Made by a program: the position numbers and the translations under genes. This document shows positions 1,487 through 58,659 of a DNA stretch of 64,000 bases, piece after piece. The stretch is from the NCBI GenBank assembly GCA_002748065.1, contig PDRJ01000027.1, forward strand, positions 1-64,000. Direction: 5' to 3'. The notes beneath the pieces were generated by a model, which did no database searches, had not been told where the DNA came from, and was given only the letters and a program-made list of their open reading frames with translations. The first letter of the stretch is position 1. Every line of letters begins with the position of its first letter. Source of the stretch: Bacteroidota bacterium. Lineage in GTDB: Bacteria; Bacteroidota; Bacteroidia; Bacteroidales; BM520.

Positions 1487-1673
1487 TATGAATTTAAAAT
1501 AATTATCTGCAAAGATACAATTAATCTATAACGACACAATTAACACATATTATAAAACATATAAAAACTAACATTATACTGATAAACAGTGTTTTTTAAT
1601 TTTTTATCGCTATTGATACTAATTGGCGTATATCTATCAGCAACAGGAGCACTCACCGCTGTAAGCTCCTGTT

Positions 1674-1752
1674 CTTCAATCTTTGCAAGCCTCGAATTCG
1701 AACGTTCTATACAGCCTCTTCTTAAAAACGCTGACTTTATGGACAGATACTA
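1674..1752 (-). repeat. Partial copy of the interspersed MITE-like repeat (R1)
   Basis: ttgcaagcctcgaattcgaacgttctatacagcctcttcttaaaaacgctgactttatggacagatacta matches other copies. Confidence 0.8.
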
Positions 1753-1832: not shown

Positions 1833-2078
1833 ATGGAATTACCAGTAATACAAATAGGGAATTCAAAAGGCTTGAGATTATCGAAGACATTACTAGACAA
1901 GTATCATATTAAGGACAAAGTAGAGCTAATCCTTGAAAAAGGCTATTTAATAATTAAGCCGATTTCAAGTCCAAGAAAAGATTGGGACAAGGCTTTTGAA
2001 CAAATGGCAAAGGAAGGAGATGACCAGCTTTTATTTGAAGATATTTTTGAAAATGAGGATTTTGAAGAATGGAAGTAG
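1833..2078 (+). CDS. mazE: AbrB/MazE-type antitoxin
   Basis: IQIGNSKGLRLSKTLLDKYHIKDKVELILEKGYLIIKP SpoVT/AbrB fold; overlaps downstream MazF start. Confidence 0.8.
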   Translation: MELPVIQIGNSKGLRLSKTLLDKYHIKDKVELILEKGYLIIKPISSPRKDWDKAFEQMAKEGDDQLLFEDIFENEDFEEWK

Positions 2079-2392
2079 TGCAGTATCAAATAGTGTTAGT
2101 CAACCTTGATCCGACCATTGGAAGTGAAATAAAAAAGACCCGACCATCTGTAATTATTTCGCCAGACGAAATGAATAAACATCTGCGGACAATTACCATT
2201 GCTCCAATGACAACGACTTCAAGAAAATATCCAACAAGAATAGAAGTAAAGCATAACAACAAAATTGGTTGGGTTGTTATTGATCAGATTCGGACAATTG
2301 ACAAACAACGAGTTATAAAGATTATAGGAAAACTCTCCAAACCTGAAATAAAGGAGTTAAAAGCGGTTATAAAAGAGACATTTGTTGATTAG
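2069..2392 (+). CDS. mazF: MazF/PemK family mRNA interferase toxin
   Basis: LVNLDPTIGSEIKKTRPSVIISPDEMN...IAPMTTTSRKYPTRI...GWVVIDQIRTIDKQRV, classic PemK/MazF motifs. Confidence 0.88.
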   Translation: MEVVQYQIVLVNLDPTIGSEIKKTRPSVIISPDEMNKHLRTITIAPMTTTSRKYPTRIEVKHNNKIGWVVIDQIRTIDKQRVIKIIGKLSKPEIKELKAVIKETFVD

Positions 2393-2394
2393 AA

Positions 2395-2574
2395 TAGCGT
2401 CCGCCTATAACGTCCGACTTCTTTATGATGCTTCTCTTTCAAATGGTTATTTCGGCGTTGCTCAATACATCACATTTACTTTAGTAAACGCCCATTTCTC
2501 GGCCTTCGCAAGCCTCGAATTTGAACATTCTGTACAGCCGCTGCTCAGCCCCTTGACTTTGTAGACAGGCCCCT
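2395..2574 (-). repeat. MITE-like repeat copy R2 (diverged, full-length)
   Basis: tagcgtccgcctataacgtccgacttctt ... gcctcgaatttgaacattctgtacagccgctgctcagccccttgactttgtagacaggcccc. Confidence 0.75.
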
Positions 2575-10473: not shown

Positions 10474-10533
10474 TAGATTAGGTGCCAGAAAAGAATCCCT
10501 TAGGATAAGGTGGCAATGTGATCAGGCCAAATA

Positions 10534-10570
10534 CTCTTCTCAAAACGCTGACTTTATGGACAGACACTAA
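10534..10570 (-). repeat. Truncated MITE-like repeat end R3 at recG 3' end
   Basis: tcttctcaaaacgctgactttatggacagacactaa. Confidence 0.8.
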
Positions 10571-12687
10571 CTGATCTGGCTCCAACGGTGCCCCATCTGC
10601 GAGAGGTATTGAAGATAATGGGCAATGGGCGCATTGGCGGGTTTTTGCAGCAGTGGATCGTCGGCGATTATTTTTGAAGCAGCGGCATGGGCATACTTTA
10701 GGATGGGTTCATCATGGACAATGGAGGCCAGCTTCAGCCCCTCAAGGCCACTCTGCCGGGTGCCACCGATCTCTCCCGGCCCCCGGAGCTGCAAGTCCGC
10801 CATGGCAATGTGGAATCCGTCGTTGCTCTCCACCATGGTGCGGAGCCTCTTTTGGGCATCAGATGAGAGTTCGTTCCTGGAGACCAAAAGGCAGTAGGAC
10901 TGATCTTGTCCTCTCCCCACCCGTCCACGTAGTTGATGCAGTTGTGACAACCCGAACCGTTCCGCATTCTCAATAACCATCACCGTGGCATTGGGCACAT
11001 CCACCCCCACTTCAATCACAGTGGTAGCCATCAAGATATGGGTCTCTCCTTTGACAAAACGTTGCATCTCAAAGGCCTTATCCTTGGCCGACAGTCGTCC
11101 GTGGACAATACTCACCTGGTATTCGGGCATCTGAAACTCCCGTGAGATGGTCTCAAACCCATCCATCAAGTCTTTTAGGTCCATTTTACGAGACTCCTCA
11201 ATAAGCGGATAGACAATATATACCTGCCTGCCTTGGGCTATTTGGTGTTTCAAAAAGCGGTTGATCTCGATCCGCTGATGGTCGAAGAGGTGTTTGGTAA
11301 CAATGGGCTTTCTTCCGGGAGGGAGTTCATCGATGACCGAGTAGTCCAAATCCCCATAGAGCGACATGGCAAGGGTGCGGGGAATGGGCGTTGCCGTCAT
11401 CACAAGCACGTGGGGAGGGATGGTATTCTTTTTCCAGAGCCGGGCTCTCTGTTCCACCCCAAAACGATGCTGTTCGTCGATAACCACCATGCCCAGGTTA
11501 TGAAACTGCACCGTTTTTTCAATAAGCGCATGGGTACCGATAATGATATCGGCCTGTCCTGTTTGCAACTCCCGGTGAATATCTTTTCGATCTACATTTT
11601 TGGTGGATCCGGTGAGGAGATGGAGGTTAAGCCCCAGGCCCTCTGTCATGCGGGTAATGGTCTGGTAATGTTGTTCTGCCAGGATCTCCGTGGGAGCCAT
11701 CAAGGCGGCCTGATAGCCATTATCAATGGCCAAGAGCATGGTCATCAGCGCCACCAGTGTTTTTCCCGACCCTACATCGCCCTGGAGCAGCCGGTTCATC
11801 TGTTTTCCCGTTCCGGTATCCTGCCGAATCTCGCGAATAACCCGTTTCTGTGCTCCCGTAAGCTCAAAGGGCAAAAAGCGGTGAAAAAACTCGTTAAAAT
11901 ATTTTCCAACCTCTTTAAAGGTGTGTCCGGGTACATGCTGGCTGCGCAAGTACTTGGCCTGTAGAATTTGTAGTTGGATAAAGAAAAACTCTTCAAATTT
12001 GAGTCTTGCCTGTGCCGCTGCAATGGCTTTTCGATTTTCGGGAAGATGGATGTTGACAAATGCCGTCTCCTTTGAAACAAATTGAAAATAGTTGATGATA
12101 GAGGGGGAGAGCGACTCCGTTAGTTTTCCCCGTAATTGCTTCAGCAGGTTCTCCTGTATTTTTGCTAATCCTTTAGAATGAAGCCCCTTATTTCGGAGTT
12201 TCTCAGTAGAGTGATACACTCCTTGCCAGCGCCTTCTCTTCTGTTGTTGAAAGGCCTCCTTCGTCTCCAGTTCGGGGTGGGCCATATTGAGGCGTCCTTT
12301 GAAGAGGGAGGGTTTTCCAAAGGCCACAAACTCATCTCCCGTCTGCACCATTTGTCGAATCCATTTAAGGCCTTTAAACCAGATCAGCTCAATGGATCCC
12401 GAAGAGTCGGAGAGGATAGCTTGGAGGCGAGTCTGCTTTCCCGCCCCGGTGGTTTCTACCTGTACAATGGTTCCCACCACCTGCACCTCCGGCATCTCCG
12501 GGGTGATTTGAGCGATGGGAGTAATCTGCGTGCGGTCCACATAACGAAAGGGATAGAAAGTGAGAAGGTCGCCAAATGTGTGAATCTCCAACTCTTTTTT
12601 AAGAAGATCCGCTCTTGCGGGCCCTACCCCTTTACAATACTCGATGGGCGTATTGAGAATGTGATCTTGCATGGTCTGTTTATCCAT
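10567..12687 (-). CDS. recG: ATP-dependent DNA helicase RecG
   Basis: LLQGDVGSGKTLVALMTML, DEQHRFGVEQR, MTATPIPRTLAMSLYGDLD, LRGRVGRG. Confidence 0.96.
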   Translation of the reverse strand: MDKQTMQDHILNTPIEYCKGVGPARADLLKKELEIHTFGDLLTFYPFRYVDRTQITPIAQITPEMPEVQVVGTIVQVETTGAGKQTRLQAILSDSSGSIELIWFKGLKWIRQMVQTGDEFVAFGKPSLFKGRLNMAHPELETKEAFQQQKRRRWQGVYHSTEKLRNKGLHSKGLAKIQENLLKQLRGKLTESLSPSIINYFQFVSKETAFVNIHLPENRKAIAAAQARLKFEEFFFIQLQILQAKYLRSQHVPGHTFKEVGKYFNEFFHRFLPFELTGAQKRVIREIRQDTGTGKQMNRLLQGDVGSGKTLVALMTMLLAIDNGYQAALMAPTEILAEQHYQTITRMTEGLGLNLHLLTGSTKNVDRKDIHRELQTGQADIIIGTHALIEKTVQFHNLGMVVIDEQHRFGVEQRARLWKKNTIPPHVLVMTATPIPRTLAMSLYGDLDYSVIDELPPGRKPIVTKHLFDHQRIEINRFLKHQIAQGRQVYIVYPLIEESRKMDLKDLMDGFETISREFQMPEYQVSIVHGRLSAKDKAFEMQRFVKGETHILMATTVIEVGVDVPNATVMVIENAERFGLSQLHQLRGRVGRGQDQSYCLLVSRNELSSDAQKRLRTMVESNDGFHIAMADLQLRGPGEIGGTRQSGLEGLKLASIVHDEPILKYAHAAASKIIADDPLLQKPANAPIAHYLQYLSQMGHRWSQIS

Positions 12688-20105: not shown

Positions 20106-20351
20106 TAGTGTCTATCCATAAAGTCAGCTTTGGGAAGAGGGCTGTATAGAACGTTCAAATTCAAGGCTTGCGAAGGCTGAAAGAAGGGAATTTTACGGGG
20201 ATAAAGCGATCCGTATTGAGCAAAACTGCCCCCCCTTTTGCCTAAAATCTGCACCTTGGTAAAAGATAAGCTTGCTTACATTCTGCTAAGGTGCAGCCTA
20301 CTTTAAAAGACAAGCGTAACGAAGAAGTCGGACGTTATAGACAGACGCTAA
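20106..20351 (+). repeat. MITE-like repeat copy R4, long variant
   Basis: tagtgtctatccataaagtcag ... gaagtcggacgttatagacagacgcta with about 90 nt extra central segment. Confidence 0.85.
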
Positions 20352-20352
20352 T

Positions 20353-20508
20353 TAGTGTTTGTCCATAAAGTCAGCGTTTTGAGAAGAGGCTGTATAGAAC
20401 GTTCAAATTCGAGGCTTGCGAAGGCTGAAATAGGTGAGTTTACTAAGGCAAATGACCATTTGGAAGACAAGCGTAACGAAGAAGTCGGACGTTATAGACA
20501 GCCTCTAA
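20353..20508 (+). repeat. MITE-like repeat copy R5, adjacent to R4 and overlapping rseP stop
   Basis: tagtgtttgtccataaagtcagcgttttgagaagaggctgtatag ... gttatagacagcctctaa. Confidence 0.9.
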
Positions 20509-21827
20509 TTAAAGAGTTTGATAATATCGTTCCCCGTAGCCAAAAGGAAGAGCCCCAACAGAAGGATCATCCCGATCATCTGAGCAATCTCCAAAAAGCG
20601 TTCGCCGGGTTTTCTGCCGGTGATCATTTCCACAAGCAGGAAGAGAACGTGGCCCCCGTCGAGCGCCGGAATGGGCAGCACATTGAGAATGGCAAGCATC
20701 ACCGAAAGGAAAGCTGTTAACCGCCAAAAGACCTCCCAGTTCCAGGTGGAGGGAAAAATACTTCCTATGGTAATAAAGCTACCAATGGATTCGTAAGCCT
20801 TGGTTTGGGGTTTTACCAAAAGTTTCAGCTGTTTCCAATAGGAACTTATCTCTTGAAAAGTTTTGGCAACTCCCCGGGGGATGGCTTCCAGCAAAGAGAA
20901 GCTGCGCTGATGAAGGTTAAAAAAGTAGGTGGTTTGGTTCACCGGAGCGACTCCGATCATTCCACTCTCTGTAACGGTCAGGGGGTATGTCAGGGTGTCC
21001 CTTTCCCGAAGCACTTTCAGTGTTACCTCTTGCCCTTTATAGTCGGCAATCGCCTCCTTAAATTGGTCAAAAAAGGGCGTTGGAATCTCATTAATGCCGA
21101 CGATGCGATCCTTTTCCAAAATTCCGGTTGCCTTTGCCGGTGACTCTTCGGCAAATCCGCCCACCACAAAGGGGATACGATAGGAAATAAAGGGTGTTTT
21201 GTGCTTCAAGAGCTTTGCCGTAATTCCCTCAGGAATCTGAATTTCATAGGGCTGCTCATTGCGATACACCTGAATAGTCTTTGCCTCGTCAAGGATCATA
21301 GCCTCGGGGATATGATTAAAATCTTCAACAGGATTACCATCAATGGCATAGATCTTATCCCCATTTCGCAATCCGATCTCATACCCAAGAGAGTCGACCA
21401 CAACCCCATACTTGAGTTCTGAAGTGGGGAGGTATTTCTCTCCAAAGACCGAGAGGAGAGCAATGTATATGACCATAGCCAGCAGGATATTTACCGTAAC
21501 ACCTCCCAACATAATGATAAGGCGTTGCCATGCGGGTTTGGTACGAAACTCCCACGGCTGGGGCGGTTGTTTCATCTGCTCTTTATCCATGGATTCGTCA
21601 ATCATCCCGGAGATCTTCACATATCCGCCAAGGGGAAGCCAACCAATACCATACTCGGTCTCTTTATATTTGTATTTAAAAAGGGAAAACCACGGATTAA
21701 AGAAAAGGTAGAACTTCTCTACTCGCACCTTAAAGATCCTTGCGGCCACAAAGTGTCCCATCTCATGCAGAACCACCAAAATAGAGAGGCTGAGGATCAG
21801 CTGTAATATCTTTATCAATACGCTCAT
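20505..21827 (-). CDS. rseP: Site-2 protease RseP (M50)
   Basis: VVLHEMGHFVAARIF HExxH and NVLPIPALDGGHVLF. Confidence 0.94.
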   Translation of the reverse strand: MSVLIKILQLILSLSILVVLHEMGHFVAARIFKVRVEKFYLFFNPWFSLFKYKYKETEYGIGWLPLGGYVKISGMIDESMDKEQMKQPPQPWEFRTKPAWQRLIIMLGGVTVNILLAMVIYIALLSVFGEKYLPTSELKYGVVVDSLGYEIGLRNGDKIYAIDGNPVEDFNHIPEAMILDEAKTIQVYRNEQPYEIQIPEGITAKLLKHKTPFISYRIPFVVGGFAEESPAKATGILEKDRIVGINEIPTPFFDQFKEAIADYKGQEVTLKVLRERDTLTYPLTVTESGMIGVAPVNQTTYFFNLHQRSFSLLEAIPRGVAKTFQEISSYWKQLKLLVKPQTKAYESIGSFITIGSIFPSTWNWEVFWRLTAFLSVMLAILNVLPIPALDGGHVLFLLVEMITGRKPGERFLEIAQMIGMILLLGLFLLATGNDIIKLFN

Positions 21828-28421: not shown

Positions 28422-28500
28422 TATCGTAGAGAAAAAGGACGCAACTTCCCGACACTTTGCCCCATTCCAACAACCAATGGGTACGATAGTCTCGTATTCA

Positions 28501-28653
28501 GCCTCTGTCCATCACGTCAACGTTTTGAGAAGAGGCTGTATAGAACATTCGAATTCGAGGCTTGCGAAGGCTGAAATAGGTGAGTTTACTGGGGTAAATG
28601 ACCATTGGGAAGACAAGCGTAACGAAGAAGTCGGACTTTATAGACAGACGCTA
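28501..28653 (+). repeat. MITE-like repeat copy R6
   Basis: gcctctgtccatcacgtcaacgttttgagaagaggctgtatag ... ggactttatagacagacgcta. Confidence 0.88.
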
Positions 28654-34715: not shown

Positions 34716-34967
34716 TGGCGTTCGTCCACAAGGTTCGACCTCTTCGTTATGCATATCTTCAAAAATAGTGCGAACCGAAAGCAACCGTAAGCAAGCTTAC
34801 TTTTTGCTAAGGTACAGCCTATTTTAGGCAAAAAAGGGATTTCAGCTTTGCCCAATGCAATTGCATTTAATGCCGTAAACGCCCCTTTTCCAGCCTCCGC
34901 AAGCCTCAAATTCGAACTTTCTATACAAACGCTTCTCAAAACCTTGATTTTATGAACAAGAACTAAT
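34716..34967 (-). repeat. MITE-like repeat copy R7, diverged long variant
   Basis: ttcgtccacaaggttcgacctcttcgttatgc ... gcctcaaattcgaactttctatacaaacgcttctcaaaaccttgattttatgaacaagaacta; central segment shared with R4. Confidence 0.75.
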
Positions 34968-38668: not shown

Positions 38669-38822
38669 AAATGTCTGTCCATAAAGTCAGGGGTTTGAAG
38701 AGGCTGTATAGAAAGTTCGAATTCGAGGCTTGCGAAGGCTGAAATAGGTGAGTTTACCAGGGTAAATGACCATTTGGAAGAGAAGCGTAACGAAGAAGTC
38801 GGACTTTCTATACAGCCTCTAT
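38669..38822 (+). repeat. MITE-like repeat copy R8
   Basis: aatgtctgtccataaagtcaggggtttgaagaggctgtatag ... gaagtcggactttctatacagcctcta. Confidence 0.88.
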
Positions 38823-51191: not shown

Positions 51192-51545
51192 ATGAACTTT
51201 AAATTTGAAAAATTAATAATTTGGCAAAAAGCAATGGATTTTGGAGAAGATATTAATAATTTATCTAAAAATTTTCCCAAAGAAGAAATGTTTAATTTGA
51301 GTTCACAAATTAGACGGGCCATTGATTCCATTGCGTTAAATATTTCAGAAGGTTCTATCGGACAATCAAACCCTGAATTTAAAAAGTTTATGGGGTATGC
51401 TATTCGTTCTCTTGCGGAAGTTGTAACATGTTTACATAAAGCAAATAGAAGAAAGCACATATCCGAAGATGAATTTACGGAGTTTTATAAAAACGCATAC
51501 AATCTTATGAATATGATGATTGCATTCAAAAATAATATTAAATAA
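51192..51545 (+). CDS. Four-helix-bundle protein (23S rRNA IVS-type family)
   Basis: MNFKFEKLIIWQKAMDFGEDINNLSKNFPKEEMFNLSSQIRRAIDSIALNISEGSIGQSNPEFKKFMGYAIRSLAEVVTCL. Confidence 0.9.
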   Translation: MNFKFEKLIIWQKAMDFGEDINNLSKNFPKEEMFNLSSQIRRAIDSIALNISEGSIGQSNPEFKKFMGYAIRSLAEVVTCLHKANRRKHISEDEFTEFYKNAYNLMNMMIAFKNNIK

Positions 51546-51565
51546 AAGAGGATATCTGAATACGG

Positions 51566-51658
51566 TAAACTGAACTTCGGTCTTCCGACTGACGAATAAA
51601 GGAGGTCTAAATACGACGACCCGAACTTCGGTCTTCTGTCTTCGGTCTTCCGACTAAT
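51566..51658 (-). repeat. Inverted heptamer-periodic tract (complement of 51095-51152 type)
   Basis: cttcggt cttccga ctgacga ... cttcggt cttctgt cttcggt cttccga ctaataa. Confidence 0.7.
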
Positions 51659-54390: not shown

Positions 54391-54540
54391 AAACTTTAAT
54401 TTTAAGAAATTAATACTTTGAGGGAAGGCCATGGATATGGAAGAAGCGATATGCAATCTAAGGTCTCAAATTAAAAGAGCTGTAAACTCAATTGCTTTAA
54501 CTATTTCGAACGATTCCATAGGTCAAGCCCATCCCGAATT
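54391..54540 (+). pseudogene. Decayed four-helix-bundle (IVS-type) gene fragment truncated at a MITE-like repeat
   Basis: aactttaattttaagaaattaatactttg and LRSQIKRAVNSIALTISNDSIGQAHPEFE align to 51192..51545; in-frame coding lost. Confidence 0.75.
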
Positions 54541-54640
54541 CGAGGCTTGCGAAGGCTGAAATAGGGGAGTTTACTGGGATAAATGACCATTTTGAAGACA
54601 AGCATAACGAAGAAGTCGGACTTTATAGACGGACGCTAAA
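54535..54640 (+). repeat. MITE-like repeat copy R9, 5' truncated
   Basis: cgaattcgaggcttgcgaaggctgaaataggggagtttactggg ... ctttatagacggacgcta. Confidence 0.88.
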
Positions 54641-54798
54641 TAGTGTCTGTCCATAAAGCCAGCGTTTTGAAAAGAGGCTGTATAGAAAGTTCGAATTCGA
54701 GGCTTGCGAAGGCTGAAAAATGTGAGTTTACTGGAGTAAATGACCATTTTGAAGACAAGCATAACGAAGAAGTCGGACTTTATAGACGGACGCTAAAT
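54641..54798 (+). repeat. MITE-like repeat copy R10, complete, tandem to R9
   Basis: tagtgtctgtccataaagccagcgttttgaaaagaggctgtatag ... gaagtcggactttatagacggacgcta. Confidence 0.93.
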
Positions 54799-57267: not shown

Positions 57268-57665
57268 ACACAAAAGTAAAAATTTCAATGTACTGGTTAT
57301 TCATAGGTATAACCATGATTTTACACACTGTATTAGCAACAATGGGTCTCATGTTTGGGAAAGATATTATAATGCCTGATGCTACGGGCGAAATCCCAAC
57401 TTATATGTATGTAATGATAATACTGACAATGATATTACCTTTTATTTTGTCTTTTATACAATTACATACAGAGGCAAAATGGTTTAAATATTCTACATAT
57501 ATATGGAGTATTATCCTTATTTTGCTTAATGCTTTTCACTTTTATTCCGCAGCATTTTTAGAAAAAGAAGGCATAGACCAGATTGTATTGTTATTGTTTG
57601 TTTTGATAATCAATGTATTTTTAACCAGAGAATTATATCGCTTTATAAAAAATAAAAATGTATAA
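57264..57665 (+). CDS. Hypothetical small membrane protein (about 4 TM)
   Basis: 133 aa, hydrophobic segments, AT-rich relative to flanking genes. Confidence 0.65.
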
Positions 57666-57727
57666 CGGGAAGTTGGAAGAGGGAAGTAGACTCCCCACTT
57701 CCAACTTTACAAAACTAAACAAAATGA
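57666..57727 (+). repeat. Direct repeat copy B with internal hairpin, flanking the 57264 gene
   Basis: GTAGACTCCCCACTTCCAACTTTACAAAACTAAACAAAATGAA; AAGTTGGAAG ... CTTCCAACTT stem. Confidence 0.75.
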
Positions 57728-58500
57728 AAATTAAATTATTCGCAGTAGTATTAGTAGTCTTAATGGCAACAAGTGCACTGTTTGCACAAACAGGACGAGA
57801 AATCATGCTACAGGCTGAGAACCGTCCGGAAGCAAAGACCAATAAATCGGAAGTTACCCTAAGAATCATCAACAAAAGAGGAAAAGAGCGAGTCCGTAAA
57901 CTGACCTCCTACTCTATAGAGCTGGGAGAAAACGGGAAAACGTTGATGTTTTTTGAGTATCCCGGCGATGTCAAAGGCACCGGCCTCTTAACGTGGGATT
58001 ACGACAAGATTGGCAAAGACGATGACAAATGGCTGTACCTCCCTGCCATGAAAAAGACACGTCGTATCAGTGGCTCATCAGCCAAAAAAGATTACTTCAT
58101 GGGAACCGATTTCACCTACGACGATATGGGCGACCGCAACATCGACGAAGATACCCACAAACTATTGGGCGAGGAGACCATAAACGAACATCCCTGTTGG
58201 ATGATAGAATCCACCTCCAAGGACAAACGAGACCTCTTCTCCAGAAAAATCATCTGGTTACGAAAAGACATCCTGATTCCGGAAAAAGTGGATTACTATG
58301 ACCGAATGGGGAAATTGCACCGTCAGATGGTCATCGAGAAGGTTGAGAAGAAGAAAGACTACTGGGTGATCCTAAAAATGACCATGTCCAACGTACAAAC
58401 CAATCACAAAACCATTATAGAATTTAACAATATGGAGTTGGATATCCCCATGGAAGAGAGCAAATTCACCGTACAAACGCTAGAGAAAGGGAGAATGTAA
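57724..58500 (+). CDS. LolA-like outer-membrane lipoprotein-sorting family protein
   Basis: Signal peptide; [55 protein letters not shown]. Confidence 0.88.
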
Positions 58501-58503
58501 GTG

Positions 58504-58659
58504 GTGCCTCTGTCCATAAAGTCAAGATTTTGAGCAACGTCTGTATAGAACGTTCGCGTTCGAGGTTTGCAAAGGCTGAAATAGGGGCGTTTACTAAGGT
58601 AAATGACCATTTTGAAAACCAGCAATGAAGAACGCGGACGTTATAGACGGACGCTAATT
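58504..58659 (+). repeat. MITE-like repeat copy R11
   Basis: tgcctctgtccataaagtcaagattttgag ... gcggacgttatagacggacgcta. Confidence 0.88.

Follow-up and report, generated by a model that had tools for sequence, protein, structure and literature searches.

A MITE-like repeat at gene ends in a Bacteroidales genome and its apparent preservation of stop codons

The 3' end of rseP

The stretch of DNA analysed here (hereafter the window, 64,000 nucleotides) comes from a 2.33-Mb Bacteroidales draft genome of 55 contigs. On its minus strand it carries rseP (20505-21827), encoding a site-2 protease of 440 amino acids with Peptidase_M50 and PDZ domains. The gene ends ...CTC TTT AAT TAG, and this TAG, at 20507-20505 of the minus strand (CTA when read on the plus strand), overlaps the right end of a full-length, 153-bp copy of a repeat (20354-20506, plus strand), as the initial annotation had proposed. 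The same annotation took the stop codon to be the terminal TAG of the repeat, which holds for two of its three bases. The repeat proper terminates at 20506 (...GCCTCT), and its right end, ...GACAGCCTCT, gives the AG of the stop codon; base 20507, which reads T on the minus strand, opens the right copy of a 4-bp target duplication, AATT (20507-20510). The T of the rseP stop codon is target DNA, and only the AG comes from the element. The left copy of AATT (20350-20353) doubles as the spacer of a tandem array, in which an older copy of the repeat (20107-20349, plus strand) lies upstream; the outer duplications of this two-copy array, AGGT and AATT, are unlike.

Did the insertion shorten rseP? 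In the closest relative (locus L047, 76% identity), RseP stops at the corresponding codon (LKLFR TAA), and the protein ends in the other relatives compared vary by a few residues only. Joining the flanks of the rseP insertion, which reconstructs the empty site, yields TAA at the present stop codon. Because relatives stop at the same codon, rseP was not shortened, and the element restored a pre-existing stop.

A second case is recG (706 amino acids; 10567-12687, minus strand), whose TAG (10569-10567) lies, as first annotated, on a 36-nt left-end remnant of the repeat (10533-10568, minus strand). Its relatives in two genomes of the same genus have the identical end residue (...WSRIS TAA). We made the same comparison for a ribonucleotide reductase gene carrying an insertion, which matches its same-genus relatives in length and in the position of the last residue (SKCS versus their SKCG), and for a 629-amino-acid gene with an insertion, which has the end residue and the length of its same-genus relative. 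For these four genes, the relatives used, which are about 55-83% identical, have the matching end codon or differ from it by one residue. Judging from these alignments, the repeat preserves stops and did not create those of the four genes.

Two further copies, annotated at 2-4 nt beyond a stop codon, measure 3 nt from that of mazF (2069-2392, plus strand, stop at 2390-2392; copy at 2396-2573, minus strand) and 4 nt from that of a LolA-like gene (57658-58500, plus strand, stop at 58498-58500; copy at 58505-58655, plus strand). The target duplication of the latter copy has decayed beyond recognition.

Anatomy of the repeat

Two-ended copies are typically 153 bp long, starting with AGTGTCTGTCCATAAAGTC and ending with GACTTTATAGACRGACGCT; single two-ended copies span 131-246 bp and have no transposase gene inside. 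The terminal inverted repeats, of about 19 bp, read AG[T/C]GTCTGTC[C/T]ATAAAGTC. This 19-bp end pattern, searched genome-wide with up to three mismatches, gave 349 matches against one for the reversed control, from which we estimate roughly 200 copies in the genome; 163 copies or fragments were counted in the 1.47 Mb sampled below. The target duplication is 4 bp long: flanking 4-mers are identical in 23 of 54 two-ended copies, where shuffling predicts 4.3, and agree at three of four bases in another 14. The consensus of the insertion site is T-ANNT-A, with ANNT as the duplication. Short, with inverted ends and a fixed 4-bp duplication, present in high copy number and mostly intergenic, the repeat is MITE-like. 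We regard it as a new, apparently uncatalogued MITE family; a search of openly available literature returned no account of the repeat or of stop-restoring MITE insertion, an absence that is weak evidence.

Further inside the left end lies another sequence similar to the terminal repeat (AGAGGCTGTATAGAACGTT, at about positions 32-50, for instance 20385-20403 in the window), whose partner in the predicted fold is the right end. For the copy next to rseP, the predicted plus-strand fold does not surpass that of shuffled sequences (z -0.7), and the minus-strand fold does so modestly (z -2.2); given these values, we claim no terminator role for it. Rfam models run against the window at gathering thresholds matched a single tRNA only, and the repeat had no structured-RNA match.

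About a dozen copies or fragments of the repeat lie in the window. Among them are full copies at 28500-28652 and 38670-38820 (both plus strand), a copy carrying an internal insert at 34717-34964 (minus strand) and one without its right part at 1641-1750 (minus strand). An internal insert, of about 90 bp (within 20200-20300), is also present in the older member of the rseP pair and contains a hairpin-like inverted repeat (CTGCACCTTGG...CTAAGGTGCAG), and inserts of about 20-90 bp are present in further copies. Degenerate short direct repeats of the type GACTTCGGTCTTCCGACT occupy intergenic DNA at 51544-51641 in the window, and also intergenic DNA in G000:C30.

Placement relative to stop codons

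The repeats were removed from the sequence before genes were called, with a simple home-made hexamer-based caller, in two samples: a first of 815 kb and, for replication, a second of 657 kb from other contigs, amounting to 1.47 Mb or about 63% of the genome. Empty sites were rebuilt by joining the sequences on either side of a copy rather than seen as alleles, apart from the gene ends compared with relatives above. Over both samples, 84 of the 95 two-ended insertions lie outside coding sequence, and insertion per coding TANNTA site is 27 times below that per non-coding site.

Twenty-one of the 84 non-genic insertions stand in an exact register with a stop codon, whereas uniform placement predicts 1.15 (P ~1e-20), and the enrichment was replicated: 13 of 47 in the first sample (0.7 expected) and 8 of 37 in the second (0.42 expected). 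Two registers are seen. In 12 of the 21 cases the duplication ends with the T of the stop codon, and the AG belongs to the element (T+AG); in the other nine, the stop is followed by 2 nt and then by the element. All 12 reconstructed empty sites of the T+AG register have TAA or TAG where the gene stops today; with the copy in place, the stop codon is TAG except for one TAA, in a copy with a mutated end.

How much of this enrichment follows from the target motif? Since TAA and TAG contain TA, the motif by itself raises the number of hits on stop codons. TANNTA sites in non-coding DNA predict 9.97 copies in the exact registers (6.2 in the first sample and 3.8 in the second, the latter with P 0.03), which leaves the 21 observed about 2.1-fold in excess (P 0.0007). 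The T-ANNT-A motif is thus responsible for about 9-fold of the roughly 18-fold excess.

The remainder could mean that gene ends or stop codons are recognised as such, through translation termination or the DNA structure of 3' ends, and form hot spots beyond their sequence. The motif-corrected excess, 21 against 10.0 and about 2.1-fold in both samples, is what such recognition would give, and convergent spacers are likewise over-represented (19 insertions against 10.0, 1.9-fold). However, a similar excess extends past the stop codon: relative to the TANNTA expectation, insertion is raised 2.3-fold at the stop codon itself and 1.9-fold in the bin 5-20 nt past it (13 insertions against 6.9; P 0.6 for the difference from the stop bin), and is at about 1 at 21-100 nt. 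Moreover, the 0-20 nt upstream of starts are depleted (4 insertions against 14.4), which suggests that selection alone moves copies toward 3' ends. Because the residual excess is common to sites 5-20 nt past stops and is accompanied by depletion on the start side, recognition specific to stop codons is not needed, and we consider it unlikely. The preference for gene ends put forward in the initial annotation is therefore real as an enrichment, with the motif as its main cause and no need for the stop codon to be recognised. In a genome from another family (G051), 4 of 15 non-genic insertions occupy the exact registers, a count in the same direction that is too small to carry weight.

The annotation had offered a second reading, in which insertions that supply a new stop are selected for a useful shortening or ending of genes. 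Called genes contain eleven two-ended insertions. In seven, most of them near the gene end, the reading frame meets a TAG at once; in four it reaches a TAA after 12 nt of the element; and no insertion has the third phase, in which reading would continue deeper into the element. This skew toward immediate stops is in the direction that such selection predicts, but from the phases in which TANNTA occurs in coding DNA, 41%, 39% and 20% are already expected for the three outcomes, so that 7 of 11 is not a significant departure (P 0.12). Four of the seven TAG-giving insertions have poor target duplications, which makes their reconstructed frame doubtful, and rseP, recG and the two further genes compared above keep their native ends and lengths. 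Selection for stop-supplying insertions is unsupported by these data and in our view very improbable. As for plain coincidence between stops and repeat ends, single cases are likely given some 200 copies and the TA in intergenic DNA, but finding 21 of 84 insertions in two exact registers where uniform placement gives 1.2 leaves it a negligible chance.

Head-to-tail arrays

Fourteen pairs of copies adjoin each other, usually across a 4-bp ANNT spacer. Two are in the window, namely the rseP pair (20107-20506) and a second pair (54534-54794, plus strand) made up of a truncated older copy (54534-54637), the spacer AAAT and a full copy (54642-54794); the other 12 are elsewhere in the sampled contigs. 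All 14 pairs are head-to-tail (two-sided P 0.0001), and in 13 of them the better-preserved copy stands at the right end of its partner (P 0.002). The copy adjoining rseP is the better-preserved member of its pair. Local tandem duplication is rejected as the origin of the arrays, since the two members of a pair are not the copies most similar to one another: in the seven pairs comparable by length, the mutual similarity of the partners ranks from 21st to 107th of 109. This organisation suggests that arrays arise by orientation-specific insertion at the end of an older copy. In G051, the repeat has the same anatomy and also forms arrays (loci L255-L279), one pair being in the opposite orientation.

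Distribution and candidate source element

The exact 19-bp end was found in 31 of the 295 Bacteroidales genomes sampled, representing 26 genera, with no match for the control. The family is widespread but patchy; no copy was detected in two genomes of the same genus (G001 and G002), and the repeat had no match in the viral contigs and plasmids in which it was sought. Searches for PF01609 and PF13751 transposases in the source genome and in the carrier genomes revealed no partner with these ends, and no autonomous element bounded by the ends of the repeat was found. In one carrier (G255:C11; L232 1501-2996 / L292), an intact IS4-family transposase gene (NF033592, E 3.5e-54) follows the exact 19-bp end at a distance of 125 nt. 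We did not accept this IS4-type transposase as the parent: it is without a matching right end, it has inner inverted repeats of its own, and its relatives in other carrier genomes are without the 19-bp end. The sole PF01609 match in the source genome is a decayed remnant of a DDE transposase (L171, G000:C34, 1055-1584), itself interrupted by a copy of the repeat at 1232-1384.

Several known systems resemble the repeat in part. RUP of pneumococcus and the Correia/NEMIS elements are also shorter than 200 bp, with terminal inverted repeats, high copy numbers and TA in the target, and RUP is thought to be mobilised in trans (PMC2229807). The repeat differs from these elements (PMC2229807) in its 4-bp ANNT duplication, in its AG...CT ends and in that no parent element was found for it. 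The MITEs of Porphyromonas gingivalis (BrickBuilt, MITEPgRS/464, MITE239 and MITE700) are likewise short, non-coding and hosted by a member of the Bacteroidales. Their terminal repeats are of the GAGACCTTTGCA and ACGTCAGTTCGA types, matching IS5-family ISPg elements (PMC4596501); we did not assign the repeat to these families, as the published ends (PMC4596501) bear no resemblance to AGTGTCTGTCCATAAAGTC.

The tendency of copies to gather at gene 3' ends is shared with QMITE2 of Coxiella, which is reported to lie for the most part in 3' untranslated regions (cited in PMC10969869), although the organism is different and the review's account of QMITE2 (PMC10969869) shows no exact stop-codon register. 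IS30 of E. coli has a dual targeting, toward palindromic hot spots and toward its own inverted repeats (PMC9333248), and the repeat is like it in its palindromic target and in the dimers formed beside the end of an existing copy. However, IS30 is autonomous and makes a 2-bp duplication, whereas the repeat is non-coding and makes one of 4 bp, with no homology shown between the two; the 4-bp duplication argues against membership in an IS30-type group.

A model for insertion at stop codons

We think it very probable that the target motif, purifying selection and stop-restoring ends together explain the placement of the repeat, and that it is a non-autonomous MITE moved in trans. The element would be a DNA transposon mobilised by a DDE-type transposase that the searches of this genome did not reveal. 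The enzyme would cut T^ANNT^A with a stagger of 4 bp and so produce a new copy reading T-ANNT-[AG...CT]-ANNT-A and, as TAA and TAG contain TA, such stops could lie within the target in two registers. In the first, of which rseP and recG are examples, the T of the stop would be the last duplicated base and the AG of the element would complete a TAG; in the second, the whole stop would lie in the flank and the duplicated target, 2 nt ahead of the element. Either way the gene would end at its original codon, so that the insertion may be nearly neutral and survive, while copies landing in coding sequence or just upstream of starts would be purged. We infer the class of the transposase, its action in trans and the purifying selection that may underlie the residual excess of about 2-fold.

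More speculatively, the repeat may belong to a Bacteroidales transposon family for which the combination of a T-ANNT-A target with AG...CT ends makes insertion into TAA or TAG harmless, and whose transposase adds copies, always in one orientation, to the end of a copy already in place; the AG...CT ends might even have been kept because T+AG regenerates stops. We hold this wider picture to be rather improbable as a whole. The head-to-tail arrays of unrelated copies are nevertheless a testable clue to an unusual targeting of the element's own ends. A stop codon supplied by a repeat, moreover, need not mean that a gene was truncated or that the insertion was selected. The mechanism proposed here would give a transposon a route to occupy important genes such as rseP harmlessly, their stop codon being overwritten and rebuilt in place.
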